A stretch of 38,416 bases of DNA from positions 1 to 38,416 of the forward strand of contig JABMPX010000003.1 in NCBI GenBank assembly GCA_013203625.1, given 5' to 3'. The notes beneath the pieces were generated by a model, which had not been told where the DNA came from, did not search any database, and worked only from the letters and a program-made list of their open reading frames with translations. Position 1 is the stretch's first letter, and the number at the start of each line of letters is the position of its first letter. The position numbers and the translations under genes were made by a program. Origin of the DNA: Parcubacteria group bacterium (GTDB lineage Bacteria > Patescibacteriota > Minisyncoccia > Portnoybacterales > UBA2143). Shown piece after piece: positions 11,390 through 14,701 of this stretch.

Positions 11390-12502
11390 TTATACCACAG
11401 AAAGATAAATATCCATTGTCTCCTGAGCTGTTTTAAGCCAATCGTATTTCTTAATTCTTTTAAATCCTTGTTCAATAAGTTTTTTTTGAAGATTTTTATC
11501 TTCTAAAACCTGTTTAATTTTTTTAGCCATATCATCAATATTCTCCGGATTAAAATATACAGCTGCTTTACCTAAAATCTCCGGCAAACAAGATGAATTT
11601 GAACAAACCACTGGTATTCCATAAGCCATTGCTTCTAATGGCGGCAAGCCGAAACCTTCGCATAATGAAGGAAAAACATAAACAGAGGCATTTTTATATA
11701 AAGTAAACAATTCTTTATCTGAAACAAAATCAGTAAAAATTATCTGTTTTGAATTTGAGAATTGGTTTTGTATTCTCTTGTAAAAATAATCTATCTCTCC
11801 CACTAAAATCAATTGCAAATCCATTTGAGAGTCTTTTACTAACTTATTAAAAGCTAAAATCAATCGCTCTAAATTCTTGTGAGGATACGCATTGCCTACG
11901 TAGAGCAAATATTCTTTGGGGGCTGCCCCCAGTACTCTGGGAGCAGCCCCCAAAGATACTCCCTCATAAATTACCTTAATTTTTTCTTTTCTAACTCTGA
12001 AATACTTTAAAATATCTTTTTTAGTATAATTAGAAACAACAATAATTTTTTTAGCTCTTTTAACAGCTGAAAAAATAACTATTTTATAAGCTAAGTTTTT
12101 TAATGAATACAGAAAAGGGCTTAAAGTAGAAGCGCGGCTTGTTGGGAATTTTTTTAAAATTAAATCATGAATAGTGATAATAAACGGCTTAAAATAAAAA
12201 ACCGGTACATTAAAATGTGGAAAATGCATCAAATCAATCCCTGCTTTCTGAATTTTAAATGGCATAAAAATCTGCTCTTTAAGGCTATACCATTTGTAAT
12301 CAGCTAAAACTTTTTTGAAATTGGGATTAGCTGGTTGATATTCATCCCAATTTTCCTTTCTTAGAAAAATAACAAATTTATTAGTTGAATTTACTTTTTC
12401 TAAATTCTCTACTAATTTCTGGACATAACGGCCTAATCCTTTTTGTTTGGGACCAAAAAATCGCGCATCTATCCCGATTTTAATTTGATTTTTTTTTCTC
12501 AT
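11390..12502 (-). CDS. Glycosyltransferase family 4 (GT-B), carrying an in-frame palindromic insertion (LGAAPRVLGAAP)
   Basis: YVGNAYPHKNLERLILAF; ASVYVFPSLCEGFGLPPLEAMAYGIPVVCSNSSCLPEI. Confidence 0.92.
   Translation of the reverse strand: MRKKNQIKIGIDARFFGPKQKGLGRYVQKLVENLEKVNSTNKFVIFLRKENWDEYQPANPNFKKVLADYKWYSLKEQIFMPFKIQKAGIDLMHFPHFNVPVFYFKPFIITIHDLILKKFPTSRASTLSPFLYSLKNLAYKIVIFSAVKRAKKIIVVSNYTKKDILKYFRVRKEKIKVIYEGVSLGAAPRVLGAAPKEYLLYVGNAYPHKNLERLILAFNKLVKDSQMDLQLILVGEIDYFYKRIQNQFSNSKQIIFTDFVSDKELFTLYKNASVYVFPSLCEGFGLPPLEAMAYGIPVVCSNSSCLPEILGKAAVYFNPENIDDMAKKIKQVLEDKNLQKKLIEQGFKRIKKYDWLKTAQETMDIYLSVV
11913..11956. repeat. 44-bp near-perfect palindrome within the glycosyltransferase CDS
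   Basis: TCTTTGGGGGCTGC-C-CCCAG-TACTCT..: 14-bp perfect arms (11913-11926/11943-11956), one mismatch that is a U.G wobble on the mRNA strand, then 5 more bp. Confidence 0.95.
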
Positions 12503-13632
12503 TTTACCAGCATTTTTAATGTTTCTTTAGCGCATTTTTGCCAAGAAAACTTTTTGGCCTGTTCAATGCCTTTTTTAACTAATCGCTCTCTTAGTCCTTT
12601 GTCTGTCAAAATTGTTTCCATAGACCAAGCTAATTCATCAATGTTATAGGGATCAATCATTAATGCTCCCTGTCCAACTACTTCTGGCAAAGAAGAATTA
12701 CAAGAAACAATAGTTGGCTTGCCGCAAGCCATTGCCTCTAAAGGCGGGAATCCAAAACCCTCAAAAAAACTAGGATAAACAAAAATCTCAGCTAAATTGT
12801 AAAGACAGGGCTTGTCTGTTTCCTCAATAAAGCCAGTAAAAACTATATCTCGGCTGTATTTTGATTCTCTGGCTGTTCTTAGAATGTCTTGATAAAGCCA
12901 GCCTTTGGTTCCAGCAATAACCAATTGGATGGATTGTTCTTTTCTTAATAATTCAAACGCTTTAATCAATCCTATAAGATTCTTTCTGGGCTCAATAGTG
13001 CCGAAATAAAGAATGAATTTCTTTGGCAGCTTATATTTCTCCCTAATTTTCTTCTTAATTCCCGACTCATAATTCATAATTCTAAACTGTTTGCCTACTC
13101 CAGAATAAATCACCTTTATTTTACTTGGCTCAATTCCATAAATACTAATCAAATCATCTTTGGTTGATTGAGAAACAGCAATAATTTTATCTGCCTGTTT
13201 AGCTTCTTTCTGCGCATCTATTAAAAATTTCTGCCAAGCTCTTTTGCGCCAGGAAAAAAAATAAGGATAGCGCTCAAAAGATAAATCATGAAAAGTAACC
13301 ACTTTTTTACAATTAATTGACAAAGGAGCTGTAAAAAAATGCGGGTTAAAATAAACATCAACCTTGCCTAATAATTTATCTATTTTAGGCTGATTAAAAT
13401 ATCGCGTTCCTGCAAAAAAAAGACGATTAGGAATTCTAAAATTTTTTAAATAAACATTATCTAAAAAAAGCCAAGGATAATTTAACTCGGCTTTTTGATA
13501 AGCATTATAAAAAAGTTGATAATTAATTTTTGGATCAAGTGATAAAAGTTCGGACAATAGATTAATCGTATATTCCTCAACCCCAGTCCTTGTTCCTCGA
13601 GCCAAAACTCTAATGTCAATTCCAATGTTCAT
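12499..13632 (-). CDS. Glycosyltransferase family 4 (start MNIGIDIR chosen)
   Basis: YFGTIEPRKNLIGLIKAFELL; EIFVYPSFFEGFGFPPLEAMACGKPTIVSCNSSLPEVVG. Confidence 0.92.
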   Translation of the reverse strand: MNIGIDIRVLARGTRTGVEEYTINLLSELLSLDPKINYQLFYNAYQKAELNYPWLFLDNVYLKNFRIPNRLFFAGTRYFNQPKIDKLLGKVDVYFNPHFFTAPLSINCKKVVTFHDLSFERYPYFFSWRKRAWQKFLIDAQKEAKQADKIIAVSQSTKDDLISIYGIEPSKIKVIYSGVGKQFRIMNYESGIKKKIREKYKLPKKFILYFGTIEPRKNLIGLIKAFELLRKEQSIQLVIAGTKGWLYQDILRTARESKYSRDIVFTGFIEETDKPCLYNLAEIFVYPSFFEGFGFPPLEAMACGKPTIVSCNSSLPEVVGQGALMIDPYNIDELAWSMETILTDKGLRERLVKKGIEQAKKFSWQKCAKETLKMLVK

Positions 13633-14701
13633 AGATAAACTCCTTAATTCTTTGTTTGAACTTCTCCTGATCAAATTCCATTGCTTTTTCTCTAATAACT
13701 TTAGGATCAAAATTATTAGGATTAAACTTTTTCAAAACTTCTACTAAGCTTTTTTTTGTTTGTTCTTTAAAAAACAAACCTGTTACTTCTGGTTTAATAG
13801 TTTCCAGCGCGCCACCAGCTTGATAAGCAATAACTGGCCTGCCAGAAGCCATTGCTTCTACAGCTGTAATGCCAAAATCTTCTTCTTGAGGGAAAATAAA
13901 TGCCTGACAATGAGCATAGTAGTCCTTTAATTTATTATCTGAAACTAAGCCGACGAATTCTATGTTCCCCTTTGATATTTTTTCTAATCTTTTTCTGTCA
14001 GGACCATCGCCAATAATTTTTAATGGCAATCCTAATTGATTAAACGCTTCAATAGCCAAATCAATACGTTTGTATGGTAAAAAACGGCTGACTATAAGAA
14101 AATAATCATCTATCTTATCAGCCAAATAAAATAAATCTGTTTTAACTGGCGGATGAATAACTTTTGATTCCTGATGATAATATTTTCTTATACGCTGACT
14201 CACAAAATTAGAATTAGCAATAAATTTGTCTACCCGGGCTGCTGCTTGTTCGTCCCAAAGACGAATATAGTTCATAAAAAAAGGAATAATTTTTTTTATC
14301 GGTCCAGAATAACCAAATTCTTCAATATATCTATGAGAATCATCCCAGGCATAACGAATTGGCGTATGACAATAGCAAATATGGAGCGCCTTTGGCGAAG
14401 TAATCACACCCTTAGCATAACTGGCTGAATCAGAAAGGACTAAATCGTATTGAGAAAGATCAAATTGTTCAATAGCCAACGGCATTAACATTAAAAAGGG
14501 ACGATGATGCGATTTGACTAAAGGAACTTTTTGTAAAAAAGATGTTTTGATTTGACAATTTTTAAAAGCTGAACCAGTTCTTTTTTCATCATAAAGCAAG
14601 GTATAGATAGGCGCTTTTGGAAAAATTTGACAAAATGCCTCTAATACCCTCTCTGCCCCTCCGTATTGATTTAAGTAATCATGAACAAGAGCAACACGCA
14701 T
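13616..14701 (-). CDS. Glycosyltransferase family 4 (WbaZ/mannosyltransferase-like)
   Basis: MRVALVHDYLNQYGGAERVLEAF; CYCHTPIRYAWD; AFIFPQEEDFGITAVEAMASGRPVIAYQAGGALETI. Confidence 0.92.
   Translation of the reverse strand: MRVALVHDYLNQYGGAERVLEAFCQIFPKAPIYTLLYDEKRTGSAFKNCQIKTSFLQKVPLVKSHHRPFLMLMPLAIEQFDLSQYDLVLSDSASYAKGVITSPKALHICYCHTPIRYAWDDSHRYIEEFGYSGPIKKIIPFFMNYIRLWDEQAAARVDKFIANSNFVSQRIRKYYHQESKVIHPPVKTDLFYLADKIDDYFLIVSRFLPYKRIDLAIEAFNQLGLPLKIIGDGPDRKRLEKISKGNIEFVGLVSDNKLKDYYAHCQAFIFPQEEDFGITAVEAMASGRPVIAYQAGGALETIKPEVTGLFFKEQTKKSLVEVLKKFNPNNFDPKVIREKAMEFDQEKFKQRIKEFIYEHWN

Follow-up and report, generated by a model that had tools for sequence, protein, structure and literature searches.

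A palindrome in frame within a glycosyltransferase gene

How does a near-perfect palindrome come to lie in frame within a protein-coding gene? The question is raised by a locus in the window, the whole 38,416-nt stretch of DNA analysed here, which comes from a bacterium whose order includes Candidatus Portnoybacteria. Positions 11913-11956 read TCTTTGGGGGCTGCCCCCAG-TACT-CTGGGAGCAGCCCCCAAAGA, a near-perfect 44-bp palindrome located in the reading frame of a glycosyltransferase (GT). The features of the locus are as follows.

11390..12502, minus strand: GT4-type glycosyltransferase gene, 370 aa, which hosts the element
11913..11956, minus strand: 44-bp palindromic element, a REP-like inverted doublet (REPIN-like), in the GT gene (pairing, fold, copies in the own genome and in relatives)
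11918..11930, no strand assigned: first 13-nt module, GGGGGCTGCCCCC, itself a palindrome (pattern search and relatives)
11931..11938, no strand assigned: 8-nt linker AGTACTCT between the modules (also present in the GGGGAC-type element of rsmA in the relative G001)
11939..11951, no strand assigned: second 13-nt module, inverted, GGGAGCAGCCCCC, one base off the consensus (pairing and pattern search)
11918..11953, minus strand: codons 184-195 (LGAAPRVLGAAP), derived from the element and forming an unstructured inter-domain loop (translation and AlphaFold2 model)

The palindrome is made of 20-nt arms around a 4-nt loop and its arms are 95% complementary, with 14 perfect pairs followed by one mismatch and five more pairs. 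On the mRNA (minus) strand, the mismatch is converted into a G.U wobble, so that the hairpin of the 44-mer pairs completely. Folding of a 124-nt piece around the palindrome gave −56.7 kcal/mol as compared with a mean of −29.6 for shuffled sequences (z = −8.1), and none of the 200 shuffles folded as low. The arms of 14 plus 5 bp and the wobble-containing mRNA hairpin of about 20 bp described in the initial annotation are thus both confirmed. The long palindrome is, moreover, composite: its repeat unit, GGGGGCWGCCCCC, is a palindrome of 13 nt found twice in the element, and the 44-mer corresponds to the inverted pair of this unit. The modules are perfect CWG-centred palindromes with 3-11 nt between them. 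The module core pattern matched four times across the window versus 0.31 expected, and all of these matches fall within the 44-mer.

In the GT reading frame, the element encodes L184-GAAPRVLGAA-P195, directly before KEYLLYVGNAYPHKNLE. The AlphaFold2 model of the protein, derived from 17 orthologs (mean pLDDT 86), shows the element residues as unstructured. They lie in the stretch that links 175-177, the final strand of the N-terminal domain, to 197-202, the initial strand of the C-terminal domain; a pLDDT below 50 is confined to one segment of the model, residues 190-193. This location agrees with the site predicted beforehand, a loop between the two GT-B domains. The loop is hypervariable among the orthologs of the window gene. 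In the nearest full-length ortholog (G005) it has an equal length and is encoded by unrelated, non-palindromic DNA, and the other orthologs have longer loops at this position. The idea of a frame-keeping peptide insert therefore holds in that the element is in frame and that the residues LGAAPRVLGAAP have no counterpart in the orthologs, but given the loop of the same length in G005, the "insertion" in the GT gene is strictly the replacement of a hypervariable loop. The added peptide is presumably neutral for function.

At C1 ~441,109-441,139 of the relative G007, a doublet marks the place where two tandem GT genes meet and leaves a single open frame of 767 aa. The window has the two as separate genes (12499..13710 and 11390..12502), and the G007 arrangement is an apparent fusion through the element.

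A dispersed repeat family in the own genome and in relatives

Pattern searches of the own genome (G000; 470 kb in 22 contigs, 88.9% complete) revealed two doublets in total, both in genes. The second, GDVLDLLGAAPSILGAAPKIVSNIPYY, is in frame in rsmA (C15:22003-22045), where it yields the peptide LGAAPSILGAAP, nearly identical to the GT insert; its linker, AGTATTCT, differs by one change from that of the window copy. A lone GGGACAGTCCC module was also seen at C17:6031-6041 of the same genome, in a hairpin that resembles a terminator and precedes a T run; this type of sequence may be what such repeats derive from.

Exact 13-nt modules numbered 146 in G007, 47 in G002 and three in the own genome, and none was present in the order's remaining 20 genomes. 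If one mismatch was allowed, G007 contained 172 copies as compared with three for the reversed-pattern control. A version with compensated arms, GGGGAC/GTCCCC (GGGGACWGTCCCC), has its core GGGACWGTCCC at 145 sites in G007 and at eight in G001, and the GGGGAC-type element in rsmA of G001 retains the window linker AGTACTCT. The G007 stretches comprise 63 exact doublets, among them 43 of the GGGGGC type with a 5-nt linker; the linker GCAAC/GTTGC is common to 37 of the 63. Among 84,980 species genomes, a set that may omit records of, or close to, the own genome, the exact GGGGGC-type doublet was found only in G002 (Candidatus Portnoybacteria RIFCSPHIGHO2_02_FULL_39_12) and in one Patescibacteria contig. 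The 84-bp element region had no match in the plasmid collection. Viral contigs were devoid of the GGGGGC-type doublet and contained one GGGGAC-type doublet, in a contig with GC-rich-looking reading frames. The copy search proposed in the initial annotation has thus revealed one further in-frame copy in the own genome as well as dozens to more than 100 copies in relatives; other copies do exist, and the orthologs do not carry the same residues encoded by non-palindromic DNA.

The compared genomes are draft or metagenome assemblies. Assembly breaks or N runs were noticed at element sites in G001 and G002, and contig C16 of G001 begins right after the GT loop. Short-read assembly was seemingly stopped by such hairpins, so that the copies are probably under-counted.

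Elements are depleted in genes and the genic copies keep the frame

The distribution of the copies relative to genes was analysed in G007 and G002, with gene calls from a simple hexamer model. Among the 97 elements of the G007 stretches, 55 are extragenic, 15 are at gene edges and 27 are inside genes, a genic share to be set against 88.6% coding DNA in the sampled stretches (p = 3e-44). The corresponding values for G002 are 14 genic elements out of 29 versus 85.7% coding DNA (p = 2e-6). These data indicate that the elements are kept out of genes overall and that the survivors keep the frame. The majority of the copies in the copy-rich relatives is extragenic, many of them near gene 3′ ends (median 10-11 nt), as with REPs. 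In G001, by contrast, each of the four doublets is genic and in frame; the hosts are rsmA, tsaD, a 317-aa ORF and a GT that carries it in the loop used in the window gene. A fixed reading frame for the element was rejected, as all three frames are occupied (modules: 21/14/12 in G007 and 9/8/7 in G002).

With respect to orthologs, the net gain was 6 aa for a UvrD-type helicase (G007 versus the own genome) and, in G002 versus G008, about 10 aa for LepA and 8 aa for AlaS, these names being assigned by conserved motifs. Alignment of G002 DNA with that of G008, of the same genus, showed that the element is absent from G008 at genic and extragenic sites alike; this presence/absence evidence for mobility comes from diverged relatives only. 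The G002/G008 alignments allowed no target-site signature or target duplication to be defined, since orthologs are too diverged even within a genus.

The same protein loops are occupied by different palindromes

In the own genome, G001 and G007, the window repeat family is found in the RsmA loop that is bounded by GD(V/I)L and NIPYY. Other repeats occupy this loop elsewhere: G004 has AGGTC palindromes, G002 the GGAGCWGCTCC element and G010 yet another palindrome, and family f7 shows repeats of the ATTCC(N)GGAAT or CCCCCTTT type. A stem of 9 bp or more was present in 10 of the 47 RsmA loops of the class versus 64 of 1,001 windows from other genes (p = 0.001). One tsaD loop is occupied in G001, G007 and G002, in differing frames, and the inter-domain loop of the GT is occupied in the window gene, in G007, in a G001 paralog and in G002.

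RAYT genes and the repeats at their flanks

Genes with a Y1_Tnp domain (PF01797) are present in 15 of the 23 genomes of the order. The RAYT gene of G007, at C1:160821-161387, has doublets of the window family immediately on both sides. Its product scored 62 bits with PF01797, and the best NCBIfam model was that of the REP-associated tyrosine transposase (NF047646, 73.5 bits, slightly below the cut-off of 80). The RAYTs share an invariant H61-x-H63 and conserved tyrosines (HUH motif, Y1 domain). A profile built from six RAYTs matched the E. coli TnpA_REP (4ER8) with E = 3.9e-7, while the search of the PDB with a single RAYT sequence gave no match; the RAYT profile had matches in 178 of the 286 genomes of the class.

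For 12 of the 18 RAYTs of the order and 22 of the 25 from the rest of the class, the two flanks have a common repeat of 13 nt or more, versus 29 of 552 control genes (Fisher test: 5e-11 for the order and 9e-23 for the rest of the class). The sequence of the flanking palindrome differs in most genomes across the class, and five of the 18 RAYTs of the order had no flank-shared repeat longer than 10 nt. The families are genome-specific: GGAGCWGCTCC occurs 33 times in the G002 stretches and AGGTCSGACCT 59 times in those of G004, with 0-4 occurrences in the others. RAYT-a of G002 (C38:8971-9537) has the GGAGC element on both sides, and nearly the whole of this element is also in frame in rsmA of G002. 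Similarly, the RAYT of G004 is flanked by AGGTCGGACCT palindromes, the core of which is in frame in rsmA of G004. The flanks of the G001 RAYT carry a palindrome other than the GGGGAC element. No GTAG tag was present in the flanks of 35 oriented G007 copies, which showed a weak A/T-rich preference and weakly conserved outer flanks.

We consider it likely that the window palindrome is a non-autonomous REP-like doublet (REPIN-like) belonging to a family spread in Portnoybacteria-related genomes via a RAYT, a Y1/HUH single-strand transposase. The RAYT would probably recognise and move the hairpin form in single-stranded DNA, most insertions into genes would be purged, and frame-keeping insertions in permissive loops would survive, adding a short Gly/Ala/Pro-rich peptide. 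Such in-frame insertions would persist, as none of the frames of the GC-rich palindrome contains a stop codon. This reading is built on the observed repeat family, its doublet form, its position on both sides of the G007 RAYT, the genome-specific REP/RAYT pairs elsewhere, the in-frame copies at recurrent loops and the genic depletion; transposition would be the step that connects them. Since no RAYT was detected in the 88.9% complete own genome, either by PF01797 or by the RAYT profile, we infer rather than observe that a RAYT placed the window copy. The own RAYT may have been lost, it may be located in the missing 11%, or the copies may have been inherited.

Alternative origins of the palindrome

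An RPE-like coding palindrome (RPE, Rickettsia palindromic element) could also have spread by another route, through another recombinase or through DNA uptake and recombination, with the RAYTs as mere neighbours of the repeats. This would account for an own genome that carries the element without a detectable RAYT and for the different flanks of the G001 RAYT, and the Rickettsia RPEs and CGTC REPs are themselves without a known transposase (PMC3733652). The shared flanking repeat is, however, strongly RAYT-specific with respect to the 552 control genes, class-wide and with differing palindromes, and we regard such a route as rather unlikely.

Alternatively, the palindromes might have formed locally: template-switch correction would extend short imperfect inverted repeats of variable loops, and similar sequences would appear with no mobility. 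The arms indeed vary in concert between the copies of the own genome and those of G001, and the linkers and outer arms of the G002 copies vary per copy but are still complementary beyond chance (mean extension of 3.2 pairs versus 0.54 expected). Simple copy-and-insert leaves this varying yet complementary pattern unexplained, and gene conversion or structure selection may therefore act besides insertion. Growth in place is nevertheless improbable as the origin of the family, because identical 13-mers at dozens to more than 100 sites, a common linker and the flanking of RAYTs require copying.

Selection of a functional RNA hairpin in the GT transcript (attenuator, terminator-like structure or mRNA stability) would fit the high stability of the mRNA hairpin and the many extragenic copies at short distance from gene 3′ ends. 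We find it very improbable, given that the hairpin is not kept in most of the order's orthologs of the window GT gene, that the element is also located in unrelated genes and frames, and that no Rfam family was matched at gathering score. Sub-threshold Rfam matches to hairpin microRNAs were taken as chance, and the RNA regulator and terminator readings were rejected for want of conservation at the GT site. That a low-complexity Gly/Ala/Pro loop is palindromic by accident, as the hypervariability of the GT loop might allow, is of negligible probability and is refuted by the additional in-frame copy in rsmA, an unrelated gene, and by the dispersed copies in relatives.

Relation to known repeat systems

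The initial annotation had described the palindrome as RPE-like. In support of this, the element is repeated, palindromic, frame-preserving, peptide-adding and missing from orthologs; its closest functional likeness is, however, to the REPIN/RAYT systems, the CGTC tag is absent at the ends of the window copy and of the oriented G007 copies, the unit is short, the copies are mostly extragenic in copy-rich relatives and the frame is not fixed. REPIN/RAYT systems are the closer kin because the G007 RAYT is flanked by the same repeat and because other RAYT palindromes occupy the same rsmA loop. As in the REPINs of Pseudomonas fluorescens SBW25 and the E. coli TnpA_REP system (PDB 4ER8; PMC3116915, PMC8266576), the present family consists of genome-specific, multicopy inverted doublets forming one hairpin, with repeats on either side of a Y1/HUH transposase gene (G007). 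Its location is mixed: 55 of the 97 G007 elements are extragenic, but the four doublets of G001 and the two of the own genome are all in genes. It differs from them by the lack of GTAG, the 13-nt perfect CWG-centred palindromes 3-11 nt apart, the many in-frame genic copies and the Patescibacteria host. With the RPEs it shares repeated palindromes in frame in housekeeping genes and the addition of short peptides. The distinction from RPEs is drawn from tag, unit and host: the present family has no CGTC, whereas RPE-4 and RPE-6 are CGTC REPs (PMC3733652), and it has a short nested-palindrome unit and an unrelated host. In addition, no transposase is known for RPEs, while a RAYT is found at the repeats in G007.

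REPs in genes, REP doublets and RAYTs were previously known (PMC3733652, PMC3116915). Intragenic GTAG/CGTC REPs have been described in Opitutus terrae, Rickettsia conorii, Thauera, Xanthomonas and others, and recB is hit at about the same site by REPs in two Xanthomonas species (PMC3733652). Like the present elements, they are often dimers in coding sequence, including UvrD/REP helicase and tRNA synthetase genes; in the present case, the same rsmA, tsaD and GT4 loops are reached in several genera by several palindromes of unrelated sequence, and some of these correspond to the RAYT of their own genome. The TIRYT/TIRtron (a RAYT with long terminal inverted repeats; PMC3733652) also has palindromic RAYT flanks without GTAG, but the flanking repeats described here are in addition abundant dispersed families occurring in coding loops. 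We classify the family as one of the REPIN/RAYT kind without GTAG that behaves like the Rickettsia coding palindromes. A survey of Y1/HUH enzymes makes no mention of Patescibacteria (PMC6006769), and we found no report, in the open-licence literature, of a REP/RAYT-type system with repeated same-loop hits in this group.

The origin of in-frame protein palindromes has been debatable ever since the Rickettsia elements were described, because no mobiliser was known for them (PMC3733652). A RAYT with the same end repeats as the in-frame copies in essential genes of a sister genome renders this question testable, and the other RAYT/palindrome pairs, with different sequences in the same loop, add to this. 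Small-genome Patescibacteria are also seen to carry RAYT-linked repeats at scale, with related RAYTs across much of the class. More speculatively, patescibacterial RAYTs might repeatedly put their own palindromes into a few defined housekeeping loops (RsmA before NIPYY, TsaD after LKTAVLY, and the GT4 inter-domain linker); a transposase of the domesticated type would then be a source of new loops, and the same kind of mechanism might explain the Rickettsia-type coding palindromes. We put this wider proposal forward as possible, with considerable doubt.

Other arrangements were seen at these loops. The rsmA loops of family f7 contain in-frame dRS3-like repeats (ATTCC..GGAAT), which resemble the CGTC-1 family, without a known transposase. 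In G017 and G018, the rsmA and GT loops are filled by in-frame tandem AT-rich units (CCAATTT, CAAATTT, AAAAATC) in place of palindromes. Finally, on C27 of G021, a RAYT gene with AGGTTGAACCT-type flanking palindromes directly adjoins rsmA.
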